From Desulfomonile tiedjei DSM 6799 (lineage in GTDB: Bacteria > Desulfobacterota > Desulfomonilia > Desulfomonilales > Desulfomonilaceae), in assembly GCF_000266945.1 (NCBI RefSeq), contig NC_018025.1, positions 2,356,001-2,420,000 on the forward strand: DNA of 64,000 bases, given 5' to 3'. The notes beneath the pieces were generated by a model. That model was not told where the DNA came from. It saw only the letters and a program-made list of their open reading frames with translations, and made no database searches. This document shows positions 28,659 through 35,046 of this stretch, in pieces. Every line of letters begins with the position of its first letter. The first letter of the stretch is position 1. The position numbers were made by a program, and so were the translations under genes.

Positions 28659-29162
28659 ATGGATCTAATACAATACAAACCCATTGGCGTTATACGATCT
28701 CCGTTCACCGATCCTGAAGGCACTCCCATTCAACCCACAGGTGCTATAGGGATAAGGGGCACGGTGGAACTGAACCCGGAATTTGTACCCGGTCTCAAGG
28801 ATCTGGACGGGTTTTCTCACATTTTCTTAATTTATCATCTACACCTGCTGAAGGGATATTCGCTCGAAGTCCAGCCTTTCATGGACAGTCGAACCAGGGG
28901 CATTTTTGCTACCAGAGCACCTGTTCGCCCAAATCCCATAGGCTTGTCGGTTGTGCGATTGATCGGAATAAAAGGTAACATCCTTCACATAGAGGATGTG
29001 GACATAGTTGACAAAACTCCTTTGCTGGACATTAAACCTTTCGTTCCGGTTCTCGATCACAGAGAAGCCCTGCGCATAGGCTGGTTCGAAAATAACGTAC
29101 ACAAAGTTACAACTATGAAAGCAGACAAGCGATTTGCAGGACAGTCAGGAAAGTCTGGATAG
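28659..29162 (+). CDS. trmO: TrmO-type tRNA m6t6A methyltransferase (TsaA/YaeB family)
   Basis: A 167-residue protein with the TrmO beta-barrel motifs: KPIGVIRSPF, DLDGFSHIFLIYHLH, SRTRGIFATRAPVRPNPIGL and a late DIKPFVPVLD. TrmO uses SAM to methylate N6-threonylcarbamoyladenosine at tRNA position 37. Related proteins also sit near archaeal and deltaproteobacterial metal genes, where their role is less clear. It follows the ORP-like operon by about 120 bp across the palindromic repeat. Its 3' end overlaps the convergent TRAP gene by 18 bp. Confidence 0.9.
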   Translation: MDLIQYKPIGVIRSPFTDPEGTPIQPTGAIGIRGTVELNPEFVPGLKDLDGFSHIFLIYHLHLLKGYSLEVQPFMDSRTRGIFATRAPVRPNPIGLSVVRLIGIKGNILHIEDVDIVDKTPLLDIKPFVPVLDHREALRIGWFENNVHKVTTMKADKRFAGQSGKSG

Positions 29163-31043
29163 ACTGCGGTTTCTCAGTCTCTGCATCACATATACCACGA
29201 GTACGACGGACGCCCCAATAGCGTCGGTCATGATGCCCGGCTGAATGAGCGCCAGGCCTCCAAAACCAAGAACAATCCTCGTGATACCATGCAGCTTTGA
29301 TTTCCAGTAGCCTACTACTGCAATGGACAGTGCGAACATTCCCAGCAATGCTGTTCCCAGGACTTGAAGAAGCAGCGAGGAAGTTGCTCCGATCAGAATG
29401 AGTACAGGTGACAGCACAAAAAAGTATGGAACCATAAATGCGCCAATGGCGAGCTTCACAGCCTCTATTCCCGTTTTCCAGGGATCCGATCCGGCAATTG
29501 CGGCTCCCGCATACACAGCGAGAGCGACTGGCGGCGTAATGTCGGCAACCACCCCGAAGTAGAAAACGAACAAGTGTGCAGCGAGGGGCTCGACTCCTAG
29601 TTTCTGCAACGCAGGAGCAGCCATGGTAGCGAGAACGATATACGTCGCAGTCGTGGGGATTCCCATCCCGAGCACCAGGGATGCCACCATCGTGAAAACA
29701 AGAGCGATAGCAAGATTGTTTTCCGCAAGTTCGATCATGTTCGACGACAACTTGAGGCCCACTCCTGTGAGCGTTACGACACCGACAATAATTCCCGCAG
29801 TGGCGCACGTAGCAATGACCGGCAAAGCCTGTGCAATTCCCGCCACCATTGCTTTACAGATCGCCGTTACACCCATGCGGCCTTCTCGCTTGACAAGTCC
29901 CGCAATCCAGGCGAGTCCCATTGACCATACTGCTGCTCGAGCCGGACTGAAACCGGCATCGAGAAGAATGAATATGGCAACGATCGGCAAAATGAGATAT
30001 CCCTGCGACTTCATCACCTGTCTGAAAACAGGGAGACTCTCTCTTGGCAATCCCACCAGACCAGAGCGTAGTGCCTCAAAGTGGACCATAAGAAATACGC
30101 CGGTAAAGTACAGGATCGCCGGAATCGCTGCAGCCTTGGCAATATCAAGATACGGAACGTTCAGGAATTCAGCCATGACAAAGGCAGCAGCGCCCATGAT
30201 CGGCGGCATGATCTGACCGCCCGTGGAAGCCGAGGCTTCCACGGCTGCTGCAAATTCCGGTCGATACCCCAGATTCTTCATCATGGGGATCGTGAACGAC
30301 CCCGATCCGGCAGTGTTCGCGATAGAGGAACCGGAGATGGTTCCTTCGAGCGCACTGGAAACCACAGCGGCCTTCGCAGGGCCTCCAGGACTCGTTCCGG
30401 TAATGGCAAGGGCGGCATCGATGAAAAACTGCCGAATACCTGTCTTTTCAAGGACCTGTGCGAAGAGGAGATACACGATTATGAGCGTCGCCGAAACGCC
30501 CAGGGGAATGCCCATGATCCCTTCAAGCCCGAGAAACGTGTGTTCGAGAACCCGCTCGAGGGAAAAACCCCGATGACCGAACAGCCCGGGAACATAGTTT
30601 CCCCAGAGCGCATAAGCGAGAAATGCACCTGCCACAATCACCATGGGCCATCCAACCACCCTGCGTGTGGCTTCCATCACCAGAACCACCCCTAATCCGG
30701 CGGTCACCAGATCCAATGTGGTGTTGACTCCGACGCGTGCGAGAAGCTGTTCATAATAGATAATGTGATACAACCCGAGACCCAGACTCAATAATGCCAG
30801 CAACACGTCCCACATTGCAGGTGAAGGTGCTTCCTTCTTACACAGTCGGGCCGGGTAAAGCAGAAATACCAGGCAGAGCCCCATGGCCAGGTGAATAGAT
30901 CTCTGAAATTGCGGAGGCAGCGGGATCGTTGCAGCCGTGTACACATGAAACAGCGCCAGCATCATGCTGAGTGCAAATACGATCCAGGCCCAGGTTCCGG
31001 CAAGTGTGCGGGACAACGTTTCTTGTTCGATTACAGGTTTCAA
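29145..31043 (-). CDS. TRAP transporter permease, fused small and large subunits (TAXI type)
   Basis: A 632-residue membrane protein in which the 4-helix DctQ-like and the DctM-like permeases are one chain, as in TAXI-TRAP systems. Conserved DctM stretches are GIPLGVSATLIIVYLLFAQV, GGQIMPPIMGAAAFVMAEF and VLGMGIPTTATYIVLATMAA. It imports a carboxylate using an ion gradient with the binding protein encoded upstream. The start is a TTG at 31043. The three-gene order binding protein, DUF1850, permease is the usual TAXI operon. The substrate is unknown. Confidence 0.93.
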   Translation of the reverse strand: MKPVIEQETLSRTLAGTWAWIVFALSMMLALFHVYTAATIPLPPQFQRSIHLAMGLCLVFLLYPARLCKKEAPSPAMWDVLLALLSLGLGLYHIIYYEQLLARVGVNTTLDLVTAGLGVVLVMEATRRVVGWPMVIVAGAFLAYALWGNYVPGLFGHRGFSLERVLEHTFLGLEGIMGIPLGVSATLIIVYLLFAQVLEKTGIRQFFIDAALAITGTSPGGPAKAAVVSSALEGTISGSSIANTAGSGSFTIPMMKNLGYRPEFAAAVEASASTGGQIMPPIMGAAAFVMAEFLNVPYLDIAKAAAIPAILYFTGVFLMVHFEALRSGLVGLPRESLPVFRQVMKSQGYLILPIVAIFILLDAGFSPARAAVWSMGLAWIAGLVKREGRMGVTAICKAMVAGIAQALPVIATCATAGIIVGVVTLTGVGLKLSSNMIELAENNLAIALVFTMVASLVLGMGIPTTATYIVLATMAAPALQKLGVEPLAAHLFVFYFGVVADITPPVALAVYAGAAIAGSDPWKTGIEAVKLAIGAFMVPYFFVLSPVLILIGATSSLLLQVLGTALLGMFALSIAVVGYWKSKLHGITRIVLGFGGLALIQPGIMTDAIGASVVLVVYVMQRLRNRSLSRLS

Positions 31044-31063
31044 CGGTAATTCCGAGAGAGACT

Positions 31064-31555
31064 CTATATACTTGGGATGTTACCACAGCTCAAAGTAAAC
31101 AGGCGAACGGCCGCGATCGGTTCCGTCGACACACGGAACACCCTGTTATTTTTTGACAAAGTAACGAAATCCACTATGTCCGGGCCGGACTGCAGTTGGT
31201 GAAACTCCGATGCGATCCCGAGGTTCAACTCCTTCATACACCGTTCGTACCCGGTCACGATGATTCTGTCACCGTCGAATTTCCAGGAAAGACCTTCTTC
31301 CGGGCTCGAAGGCAAATTCGGCCCCTCGTGATCGAATGTCATACGCCTGAGACACAGACGTCCATCGGAACCGATCACATAATCTTCCGATACGACACGT
31401 CGGCTGACGCTGTGCGTCCAGGTGATGCGAAAAACCGATCCCTGGAGCACTGGAACAGCCCAAAGAACATCATTGGTTCCGGATGAGCGGACAACAAGCG
31501 ATGGAATGGGTAAGCATAGATAGGATAAGAGGCAGATGACGGCTGCGATCTTCAC
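31064..31555 (-). CDS. DUF1850 domain protein
   Basis: A 163-residue exported or membrane-anchored protein with an N-terminal hydrophobic segment (AAVICLLSYLCLPIPSLVV) and the DUF1850 pattern VFRITWTHSVSRRVVSEDYV and MTFDHEGPNLPSSPEEGLSW. It starts with GTG overlapping the TGA of the binding-protein gene. Such proteins are regularly encoded with TAXI TRAP permeases. Their task is not known. Confidence 0.88.
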   Translation of the reverse strand: MKIAAVICLLSYLCLPIPSLVVRSSGTNDVLWAVPVLQGSVFRITWTHSVSRRVVSEDYVIGSDGRLCLRRMTFDHEGPNLPSSPEEGLSWKFDGDRIIVTGYERCMKELNLGIASEFHQLQSGPDIVDFVTLSKNNRVFRVSTEPIAAVRLFTLSCGNIPSI

Positions 31556-32559
31556 GGTTTTGACTCTATGGCAACTCCCTGTTCTCTCAGGTATTTTTCT
31601 GCACCGGGATGGAACGGAATCGTCACGCCTTCTGCTGCATGTTTGACATCGAATTCCCGGGCTTTACTGTGACCGATTTCCTGTGCTGAAGAAAACAGCG
31701 TTTTTGTCAGCATGTATACGAGATTGTTATCAAGGTCGGATCTTACCACCAGCATCGCTTTCAAAGCCGCAACAGGCACATCCTTGTCCATACCCTTATA
31801 GGTGCCTGCCTTGGCCACAAATTCGACATAGAAAGGGTAGGCGGTTTTGAGCTTTTCCACGTCAATGGGAAGTAAACGGATATTTCTGGTGGTTTGCACG
31901 TCAACGAGCGCTGCATTGGGAATTCCGGAGACGATCGCCAGACCTTCTGCATTGCCGTCCTTCATGGCCGTTGCTCCTTCAACAAATCCCAGGAACAGCG
32001 GTGAAATATCTTTCTGATCTTTATACTGCAATCCGTAAGCGGAAAATATCTGGCGTGAAACCAGTTCGGTTCCCGATGCCGCTGCTCCCACGACCACCTT
32101 TTTCCCTCTCAGATCCTGAATTGTCTGTATGGGAGAATCCGCATTAACGACAATCTGGACAACCTCCGGGAATAATGATGCCATTGCCAGGTAATTGGTG
32201 TAACGCTCGCTCATTTCCCCGAATACTTCTTTGCCCGATCTGCCATAATCCGCAATATCGTTTTGCACGAGAGCAATATCGGCTTCTTTCTTTGCCAGAA
32301 GTCGTATGTTTGCCACTGATGCCCCGGTAGCCTGCACCGTCACATTGACCCCGGGAAGCGCATCTTTCCACGCTTTCGCTATACCACCGCCCAGAGGATA
32401 ATACGTTCCTCCAGTGCCGCCTGTGGCTATTATCAGGTCGGTACGTTGGCCGGGTTTCCACTCGCCTGATTTTTCGGCGGTTTTCTGACCCACTTCACTG
32501 CATTGAACCAGGCACACTACCAGCAAAACCAGTGTCAGGATGTATATGTATCGTGTCAT
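31552..32559 (-). CDS. TAXI-family TRAP substrate-binding lipoprotein
   Basis: A 335-residue periplasmic binding protein. A signal peptide ends in the lipobox LVQC, followed by the TAXI features IATGGTGGTYYPLGGGIAKAW, ASVANIRLLAKKEADIALVQ and DLRGKKVVVGAAASGTE. The ATG at 32559 has GGAG 8 nt upstream. Another ATG at 32577 is too close to its AGGAGG to be preferred, though it is possible. It captures the substrate for the fused permease downstream. Confidence 0.93.
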   Translation of the reverse strand: MTRYIYILTLVLLVVCLVQCSEVGQKTAEKSGEWKPGQRTDLIIATGGTGGTYYPLGGGIAKAWKDALPGVNVTVQATGASVANIRLLAKKEADIALVQNDIADYGRSGKEVFGEMSERYTNYLAMASLFPEVVQIVVNADSPIQTIQDLRGKKVVVGAAASGTELVSRQIFSAYGLQYKDQKDISPLFLGFVEGATAMKDGNAEGLAIVSGIPNAALVDVQTTRNIRLLPIDVEKLKTAYPFYVEFVAKAGTYKGMDKDVPVAALKAMLVVRSDLDNNLVYMLTKTLFSSAQEIGHSKAREFDVKHAAEGVTIPFHPGAEKYLREQGVAIESKP

Positions 32560-32730
32560 TAAACGGCTCCGTTTCATTCCTCCTGTGACATATCACATTC
32601 CCAGCAGTAAGAAAACGAAACTCCCGGGGCGGACGCAATTTCCCCGAAAACTGCGGTAGAGATTCTCGTCTGCAAAATATACAGAAGGGAGGGGCGCAAG
32701 TGCCAGAAGTTCTTGAGGTGGGGTTCGGGG

Positions 32731-33019: not shown

Positions 33020-34051
33020 TCAGGCTCCGTTGTCCTTCAGAATCTTGTGCACCTGGGCTTTCGGTAGAACCCCGATAAAGGAAGCTTTCACTTGAGCATT
33101 GCGGATCAGGAATGTCGTTGGTATTTTGGTTATCTCGAAGGCCCGCGCCAATTCGCGTTCATTCATGAAGATCAACCCCACAACCACTCGACCTTTTGTT
33201 TCAACAGCCAGTTCCTCCAGGACGGATGCCATCCGTCTACACGGCCCTCACGTGTGGCTGTAGAATTGGAGGATTACGGGATACACCTTTGAAGCTTCCA
33301 CTACCTGTTCTTTGAAGTCCCTGGATGAAAACTCTCGCAGTTTTCCTGTGACATATTTGTCAGATTCTTTTGGGGCTTGATCCTGCGGGGATGTTTGTGG
33401 GGACTCTTTGAGGGGAATAGTATCATGTTCCGTGGGCCGGAGTGTTTCATCCAAAGGTTGGGGCGCAGGTTCGGCTTCTGCGCTGGTGGCAGAAGGAGTT
33501 CCAGCTTCGGAAGGAATCGATACGGAATCGCTTCCAGAAGAAATGCGTGACCGAATGTCTTCGAGATCTTTGCTTCCCATGAGAACGACATGGGACTGTT
33601 CTTTGGCCTGATGTCGTGACCACCAGATCAGGCCAACCCCAATGCTGGCACAGATCAGTATGCTGACGATCACCGAGAACCAGTTTTTTTCGCTCGAATC
33701 CTCGGATGGTGCGGGGACATCCCGAACGACTCCACGGGAAGCCAAAAACTTTTTGATCACCACTCCGCAAAACGGACACTCATCGACATCCTCTGTCCAT
33801 TCTGCATCACAGGAAGGACACCTGAATTGAACCTTCTTTTCCGGCTCCGGAACAGGGCTGGTCTCGCGTGACGGCCTTCGTGGAATTTCGTTTTCCCGGA
33901 GATGGCCGGAGTCGACCAGCTTGCCAAGAGTCTTCTTCAGGCCGTTTTCGGACAAGCCGTACTTCTGCATGAGCTCCATCTCACTCATGCCCGAACGGAT
34001 GTCTGCTACAATTTTGCTCGCGCTGATTCTGCGCTTTTGGGTTTCAGTCAT
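33020..34051 (-). CDS. Selenocysteine thioredoxin fused to zinc ribbon and membrane anchor
   Basis: The frame runs from 34051 through a single TGA (33248-33250) to 33020, giving 343 residues with selenocysteine at 268. N-terminal helix-turn-helix-like segment (8-50), zinc ribbon (CPSC and CPFC, Cys78, 81, 92, 95), one transmembrane helix (124-144), a Ser/Pro/Glu-rich linker, then a thioredoxin domain: VYPVILQFYSHT-U-GPCRRMASVLEEL, later EITKIPTTFLI with the cis-Pro. The TGA replaces exactly the first Cys of the CGPC active site. Frame and similarity are continuous across it. A palindrome 10 nt later could be the SECIS. A stop-containing pseudogene is the alternative but would be a remarkable coincidence. 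Confidence 0.85.
33221..33237 (-). promoter_or_regulatory. Putative bacterial SECIS hairpin
   Basis: GACGGAT-GGC-ATCCGTC forms a 7-bp perfect stem with a 3-nt loop. It begins 10 nt after the in-frame TGA, with the loop about 19 nt from the codon, which fits the position of bacterial SECIS elements read by SelB. Loop sequence requirements were not tested. Confidence 0.55.
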
Positions 34052-34287: not shown

Positions 34288-34501
34288 TAAGTCGATGTTT
34301 AAACTATGACATTCTGACCTGAAAAATACTCCAGGATTGATTCCCCGTCAATGCAAGATTCAAACTATCTCAGGGGTTCGAGATAGAACACGAAGCGCTT
34401 AGAGGTTGATATGTCAATAAAATCCAGGAATCAGATGAAACACTTGACCGAAGACGAGTGTCATAGTAAAAGTACATACGACCCTTTCAGGAGTGAAGGT
34501 T

Positions 34502-34732
34502 ATGCCACAATTTCCTACCACCGATGAAGACATCCAGTGTCAGCGAGAGGCTCTTCCTAGAGAGAAACTACTGGCAACAAAAGACGTACTCGCGCTTATT
34601 AGCGGGGACATTTTAAAATCCAGCCGATTAGAGGTACTTGAATGTGCTCTGATGTCGGGATCAGCTCTTGGTAAGGAACTGAATACTCCCGAGGAGGATG
34701 AGGCATGGGCACATTTCAACCAGGAGACGTAG
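34502..34732 (+). CDS. Putative antitoxin of the PemK/MazF pair
   Basis: A 76-residue acidic protein with no DNA-binding motif I can name. It reads TDEDIQCQREALPREKLLAT, then LISGDILKSSRLEVLECALM and EEDEAWAHFNQ. It overlaps the MazF-like gene by 28 nt, the usual antitoxin-first arrangement, and that is the main evidence for its role. AGGAG lies 8 nt before the ATG at 34502, so the GTG at 34493 is not preferred. It does not resemble the usual MazE/PemI types. Confidence 0.6.
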   Translation: MPQFPTTDEDIQCQREALPREKLLATKDVLALISGDILKSSRLEVLECALMSGSALGKELNTPEEDEAWAHFNQET

Positions 34733-35046
34733 TAATTGCTCAATTCTTTTTCACGGATATGAGTGCTTCGAAGAAACGTCCCGCTCTGATTTTGGCAGAT
34801 TTTTCGGGAGATGATTACTTTCTTTGCTCTATCACAGCTGCTCTTCGCACACACGATCCTTTTCAATTACCATTAGGAAGAGATGAGCTAGAAGGAGGGA
34901 GTCTAAATAGGGACAGCTTCATTAGGCCAAGCCTGATGATGACTGTACACGAAGGCTTGATTTATTATAAGATCGGTTCCTTACCAAGCGACAAAATGAA
35001 ACAGGTGCGAGAGACTATTGTAGATATCATAATGGGTAAAGTCTAA
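34705..35046 (+). CDS. PemK/MazF-family toxin
   Basis: A 113-residue MazF-fold protein: FQPGDVVIAQFFFTDMSASK with KRPALILADFSGDDYFLCSI matches the PemK/MazF opening (GDIVLVDFP...KKRPALVLS). SFIRPSLMMTVHEGLIYYKIG and a C-terminal helix KMKQVRETIVDIIMG follow. Family members cut mRNA at short motifs when free of antitoxin. GAGGAGGATGAG precedes the ATG inside the partner gene. It is full length and looks functional. Confidence 0.85.
   Translation: MGTFQPGDVVIAQFFFTDMSASKKRPALILADFSGDDYFLCSITAALRTHDPFQLPLGRDELEGGSLNRDSFIRPSLMMTVHEGLIYYKIGSLPSDKMKQVRETIVDIIMGKV

Follow-up and report, generated by a model that had tools for sequence, protein, structure and literature searches.

Known selenocysteine thioredoxins and the Desulfomonile gene

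Thioredoxins with a UxxC active site (U, selenocysteine or Sec) are a known selenoprotein family, as described in the portions of the literature available to us (PMC13188914, PMC1794560, PMC9312934). We found a gene in Desulfomonile tiedjei DSM 6799 that appears to belong to this family and to have a different architecture. Like the Sec thioredoxin of PMC13188914 and PMC9312934, as far as the accessible parts of these papers describe it, the gene specifies a PF00085 match and a UxxC active site and has a TGA followed by a hairpin. In those parts, the catalogued protein is entered simply as thioredoxin (Trx). In contrast, the thioredoxin here is the C-terminal domain of a 343-aa multi-part protein. 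In addition, the Gly-Pro of the active-site motif is not fixed in the family of the Desulfomonile gene.

The nearest sequence relatives are cysteine-containing transmembrane (TM) thioredoxins from the same order (for example, L036 and L038). The membrane helix precedes the thioredoxin in all six that were examined. These relatives differ from the Desulfomonile protein in having a CFPC or CLPC active site and no conserved GGN hairpin, and their open frames (114-206 aa) are too short for a helix-turn-helix (HTH) domain and a zinc ribbon. Two other families share one part each. NF049953 (zinc ribbon-containing (seleno)protein DG) likewise has a zinc ribbon in a selenoprotein family. We rejected it as the family of this protein; the score was 16.1 bits (cut-off 130) and only 21 zinc-ribbon residues were matched. 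The DUF433 profile (PF04255) matches the N-terminal module weakly, and the Desulfomonile protein itself is below the cut-off.

None of the NCBIfam models scored above cut-off for the three TGA-containing proteins scanned. The term "zinc ribbon" does not appear in the accessible text of PMC13188914, and the accessible parts of the selenoprotein catalogues have no entry with this domain order. A literature search, within the text that it could reach, found no description of this architecture or of Desulfomonile selenoproteins. Because there is no matching catalogue entry and no NCBIfam model above cut-off, we regard this as a known family with a novel architecture. That is, the combination of an HTH-like domain, a zinc ribbon, a membrane helix, a disordered linker and a UxxC thioredoxin is what looks new. 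We estimate a probability of about 0.88 that the gene encodes a SelB-dependent selenoprotein, a membrane-tethered UxxC thioredoxin with an HTH/zinc-ribbon module. Judged from sequence, it is part of a real selenoprotein subfamily, for which we propose a function below.

An in-frame TGA within a thioredoxin domain

The window is the whole stretch of DNA that was analyzed, 64,000 nucleotides of contig NC_018025.1 (positions 2,356,001 to 2,420,000), and coordinates below are positions in the window. The gene occupies 33020-34051, as the first-pass annotation had placed it, and is on the minus strand, a point that the annotation lacked. The gene has one in-frame TGA, at codon 268 (33248-33250, minus strand), and ends with a second TGA (33022-33020). 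This structure was determined by translation with TGA read as U and by comparison to homologues. The context of codon 268 is ...QFYSHT-U-GPCRRMASVLEEL... in the minus-strand frame, confirming that a single TGA stands where a thioredoxin has its first active-site Cys. ORF calling with translation table 11 cuts the gene at this TGA into ORFs of 267 and 70 aa, exactly the split that had been predicted. The gene would add to the known selenoproteins an architecture that is cut in two by mechanical ORF calling.

The thioredoxin domain (33023-33358, minus strand) was recognized by Pfam, by alignment and by Foldseek, and has the active site U-G-P-C and a cis-Pro region with the sequence KIPT. A single match to PF00085 covers residues 241-339 (E=1.5e-15; 57.5 bits, above the cut-off of 23.5) and spans the TGA. 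That is, thioredoxin homology is unbroken on both sides of the TGA, as the first-pass annotation had stated. The score with TIGR01068, the classical thioredoxin equivalog, was 61.9 bits, below the curated cut-off of 96.8.

The rest of the protein has four parts, all encoded on the minus strand. An N-terminal three-helix, HTH-like domain (residues 11-47; 33911-34021) is weakly similar to DUF433 by Pfam and is seen in the predicted structure. It is followed by a zinc ribbon (33767-33820) with Cys 78, 81, 92 and 95, identified by a weak profile match below cut-off and by alignment; the four Cys are invariant in all 16 aligned rows. A single membrane helix (residues about 125-145; 33617-33679) has a mean hydropathy of 2.1 and is also present in the predicted structure. 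The linker between this helix and the thioredoxin (residues 146-231; 33359-33616) is rich in Ser, Pro and Glu and is mostly disordered by prediction (pLDDT <50 over residues 153-196 and 198-230). The family search, the hydropathy and the structure prediction, which is of modest confidence, agree on the order originally proposed: HTH-like domain, zinc ribbon, membrane helix, Sec thioredoxin.

The TGA is conserved at one column among homologues

We found full-length homologues with the TGA in 5 of the 18 genomes of the order that were searched, including that of D. tiedjei itself. The five genomes represent four genera and include G012, G013 and G017. Each of the five genes has exactly one TGA, always at the same column, and no other stop. 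The other four proteins are 48, 44, 41 and 38% identical to the window protein, and 45 thioredoxin columns, counting that of the TGA, are invariant across all five. Codons downstream of the TGA drift synonymously while the protein sequence stays the same. None of the matches listed for the 18 genomes was a full-length homologue without the stop.

The active sites of the five full-length proteins are UGPC, UGPC, UPPC, UMPC and UPAC. G013 has a sixth TGA-containing thioredoxin gene (L037:1285-1854), with the active site UPTC, that encodes a membrane helix and a thioredoxin without the HTH and zinc-ribbon domains. The TGA and the Cys at +3 are constant in all six genes and the residues between them vary. 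A larger set of 29 thioredoxin loci was assembled with a motif that demanded either TGA or Cys at the column plus Cys three residues on; the column had TGA in 6 loci and Cys in 23, and none of the 29 failed the motif. The first-pass annotation had proposed looking for Cys or TGA among homologues at this position, and these are the two residues found with a motif requiring one or the other.

Wider searches placed the TGA forms in the same group of organisms. Among the matches listed in a search of 42 genomes of the class, TGA forms were restricted to the same five genomes. In a sample of 395 genomes drawn evenly from the phylum, five had a match at E 1e-20, a strict threshold; in most of the genomes shown, no more than 11 candidates were scored. 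All five were from one family and three had the TGA gene. A contig search with the window protein as the single query confirmed no homologue. When the thioredoxin alignment was the query, five loci came up. Two of these were Cys thioredoxins; the other three match loci from G011, G013 and G017 over the 60 bases compared and were not counted again.

The Sec form appears to have arisen by duplication of a Cys form that was retained

In a tree of the 29 loci, the six Sec rows formed one side of a branch (support 99/97) among the Cys thioredoxins. The group around this Sec branch also contains 17 rows of Cys TM-thioredoxins, and the sixth TGA row, the short paralogue from G013, is a long branch. 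Each of the 18 genomes of the order has, among the listed matches, one to the Cys TM-thioredoxin group without a stop. The residue at the column is Cys in all of them: 17 were read within the 29-locus set and the eighteenth, G013, separately. Because there is one Sec clade and the Cys form is kept in 18 of 18 genomes, the Sec form appears to be a duplicate standing beside a retained Cys form.

Most likely, a Cys TM-thioredoxin was duplicated and one copy then underwent a Cys-to-Sec change with capture of the hairpin. The HTH/zinc-ribbon module would have been gained in the Sec lineage, and this order of events is the one that we propose. If so, the family is a clean case of a change from Cys to Sec after duplication, with the Cys paralogue present in all 18 genomes and hairpin capture that may be traced base by base.

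A hairpin following the TGA is conserved in position and in codons

The hairpin downstream of codon 268 (33221-33237, minus strand; GACGGAU-GGC-AUCCGUC) is of the bacterial SECIS (bSECIS) type, as judged by folding and conservation. The stem starts 10 nt after the TGA and is a perfect 7 bp, and the GGC triloop begins 18 nt after the TGA. The first-pass annotation had cited this 7-bp hairpin in favor of Sec. The hairpin is indeed present; its stem length is unremarkable in a single gene, since 9.9% of synonymous recodings of the window gene equal it. For the six TGA genes, 1.5-10% of synonymous recodings per gene matched the stem length.

Comparison among genes was more informative. All five full-length genes retain the 7-bp hairpin and its GGC triloop; in the sixth, shorter paralogue the hairpin has a GGA loop. 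A GGN triloop at base 18 with a stem of at least 7 bp was found in 6 of 6 TGA genes vs 0 of 23 Cys genes (Fisher 2e-6). With a laxer criterion, any stem of at least 7 bp, 3 of the 23 Cys genes also had one. All 42 pair cells in the six TGA genes are standard pairs.

The dimensions of the hairpin are the same in the six TGA genes: a loop of 3 nt, a stem of 7-8 bp, GG in the loop and 17 nt from the UGA. According to the accessible portion of PMC13188914, the bSECIS model allows a loop of 3-9 nt, a stem of 4-16 bp, a G in the first two loop bases, 16-37 nt from the UGA and an energy of at most -7.5 kcal/mol. All six genes are within the limits given there for loop, stem, loop G and spacing. The energy limit given there was reached by 2 of the 6 bare 17-nt hairpins and by 6 of 6 folds of 35 nt, a result that depends on fold length. 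In some of the longer folds the outermost pairs deviate from a simple hairpin.

We dropped two lines of evidence. Fold energy was weak as proof of the hairpin: p was 0.026-0.13 over 28 nt in the six TGA genes and, over 45 nt, 0.11-0.25 in five of them and 0.0035 in one. Covariation had too few changes, with one pair showing one double change and a score that was equalled in 84 of 500 shuffles.

The codons within the hairpin are conserved beyond the protein sequence. The thioredoxin domain has 43 columns that are invariant in amino acid and have degenerate codons, and at 5 of these the five full-length genes all use the same codon. The hairpin holds 4 of the 43 columns and 3 of the 5 frozen codons (CGG, GCA and TCC), an enrichment with a hypergeometric probability of 0.003. 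Without the fourth hairpin column the value was 8e-4; we use 0.003 because the fourth column lies in the hairpin. The codon at that column, GTC, is GTT in one gene, and the partner base changes too, converting G-C to A-U. As far as the alignments indicate, the evidence beyond chance for the hairpin is this conservation of position and codons and not its stability.

Selenocysteine machinery and a second selB

The genome contains all four genes of the Sec machinery that the first-pass annotation had suggested looking for: selA (599 bits), selB (404.5), a tRNA-Sec with the anticodon UCA (69.5) and selD (367.6). The selD gene itself carries one internal TGA, followed by a 7-bp stem whose GGA triloop starts at base 21. 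Given the frame, the homologue column and this machinery, the selenocysteine interpretation of the TGA is well supported.

A second selB (291 bits), divergent from the first, is present as well. About 0.1 kb before it is a tRNA-Sec-like gene (51.9 bits) with the anticodon GCA, called tRNA-Cys(GCA) by ARAGORN. By eye, this tRNA has an acceptor stem of 8 pairs and U at base 73. The tRNA gene (L010:1501-1592) and the second selB (L002; G000:C1:3562734-3564838) are a candidate selC*/selB* pair. The accessible part of PMC7609411 describes such pairs from Syntrophobacterales and Desulfobacterales, and the Desulfomonile genes are candidates for another of these deltaproteobacterial pairs. The congener G011 has a similar GCA tRNA (L062) and a second selB, which is partial (cut by the match or by the contig).

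Recoding of UGA as Cys by such a tRNA has been studied experimentally. The second SelB and the tRNA-Sec-like gene with a Cys anticodon are there, and therefore some decoding of UGA as Cys may occur in Desulfomonile. It is possible that the UGA is decoded mainly as Cys by this pair, for example under selenium shortage. The presence of the pair in D. tiedjei and the congener, and of similar pairs in the two orders named above, fits this reading, which we nonetheless consider quite unlikely. The draft genomes of G012, G013 and G017 contain the TGA gene and one selB each; no GCA tRNA-Sec-like gene was found in these drafts at E 1e-7, only the UCA one, plus a tRNA-Trp in G017. Because neither a second selB nor a GCA tRNA was found in these three drafts, Sec is the reading shared by all genomes with the TGA gene. 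In addition, SelB* is only 30% identical to SelB overall and 27% over the last 80 columns, so it need not bind the hairpin of the window gene. The Desulfomonile gene is a natural substrate for asking whether selC*/selB* inserts Cys at the UGA of a selenoprotein.

It is also conceivable that the gene has two products, with selenium setting the ratio of the 267-aa to the full-length protein and the gene acting as a sensor of selenium or redox state. Modules of the kind encoded ahead of the UGA are joined to other output domains in other proteins of the genome, consistent with a separate product. Some termination is expected at any bacterial Sec codon, and this counts against giving the short product a role of its own. 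We consider the two-product reading, which is compatible with a selenoprotein, very improbable. A combination is unlikely as well: the UGA in Desulfomonile might be a three-way switch, read as Sec with selenium, read as Cys through SelB* and the GCA tRNA without selenium, or used for termination. If this were true, termination would free a membrane-bound HTH/zinc-ribbon protein without the redox domain, and one gene would report both selenium and redox state.

That the UGA is an ordinary stop yielding a 267-aa product, with the thioredoxin part decaying or the stop a sequencing error, is barely credible: the same gene does terminate with TGA and mechanical ORF calling does cut at codon 268, but decay and error are disfavored because the TGA is at one column in five genomes and four genera, and 45 invariant thioredoxin columns and synonymous drift downstream with the protein kept also argue against an ordinary stop.

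The N-terminal module is widespread in the genome

The module at the N terminus of the putative selenoprotein occurs in many other proteins of D. tiedjei. The first 106 aa (33734-34051, minus strand) had 56 matches in the genome, counting the protein itself, several of them in tandem in one ORF. The window protein scored 15.5 bits with DUF433, below the gathering threshold of 23.6. Two of the nine module proteins scanned were above the DUF433 cut-off, the paralogues L098 (32.7 bits) and L115 (24.3 bits). Pfam partners of the module in nine proteins, seven from this genome, include PilZ, beta-propeller, HD and CAAX-protease domains among others. A structure search with the N-terminal part gave only non-significant matches (best E 0.4). 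The module could direct the enzyme to a target, either a nucleic acid or a protein.

Three loci (L031, L035 and L039) encode HTH/zinc-ribbon/membrane proteins with a different C-terminal part that, by eye, has a DGNADGDYSNDP motif. The C-terminal part of L035, the one of the three that was scanned, had no Pfam match at E 0.05.

Predicted structure and a proposed mechanism

A structure predicted from five sequences had a mean pLDDT of 60.5 and a pTM of 0.33. The model has three N-terminal helices within residues 11-47, short strands in the zinc-ribbon stretch and one long helix (residues 124-158) that contains the membrane stretch and is followed by the low-confidence linker. The C-terminal part has the strand and helix order of thioredoxin. 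The Foldseek rows shown for this model (mean pLDDT 60.5) are mostly thioredoxins and thioredoxin fusions, with target-normalized TM scores up to 0.88. E-values over 50 rows were 7e-10 to 1.4e-8, and solved thioredoxins are adjacent to the model.

Two observations bear on topology. The net charge after the membrane helix is positive in 5 of 5 full-length genes, and the net charge before it is negative in 4 of 5 and +1 in one. This pattern counts against an N-in/C-out topology. The HTH-like module and its PilZ- and HD-bearing relatives suggest a cytoplasmic N terminus.

Based on these features, we infer that SelB bound to the downstream hairpin would bring Sec-tRNA(Sec) to the ribosome at UGA268. 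The product would be held to the membrane by one helix, from which a long flexible linker leads to the U-x-x-C active site, and the HTH-like and zinc-ribbon module would be on the opposite side of the membrane from the thioredoxin. Its most likely role is that of a membrane-tethered dithiol/selenol oxidoreductase. The selenolate would attack a disulfide in the substrate, and the resolving Cys271 would then free the substrate.

Genomic neighborhood

We compared the neighbors of the gene with ORFs of at least 80 aa in stretches of 19 kb from three other genomes and found none that is conserved; the contig of a fourth genome is 3.6 kb long. The only neighbor matches in the stretches were a TPR protein and, by eye, a dehydrogenase-like protein about 10 kb away. 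Promoter-like sites (1 vs 1.6 in shuffles) and terminator-like sites (4 vs 2.2) were not used as evidence.

In the window, a PemK/MazF-like toxin gene (34493-35046, plus strand) is divergent from the thioredoxin gene. A small ORF overlaps and precedes the toxin gene, a placement like that of toxin-antitoxin genes, and had no Pfam match at E 0.001. Downstream, and on the same strand as the thioredoxin gene, is a TRAP-type transporter set (29145-32577, minus strand) encoding a DctM-like permease, a DUF1850 protein and an NMT1-like binding protein.
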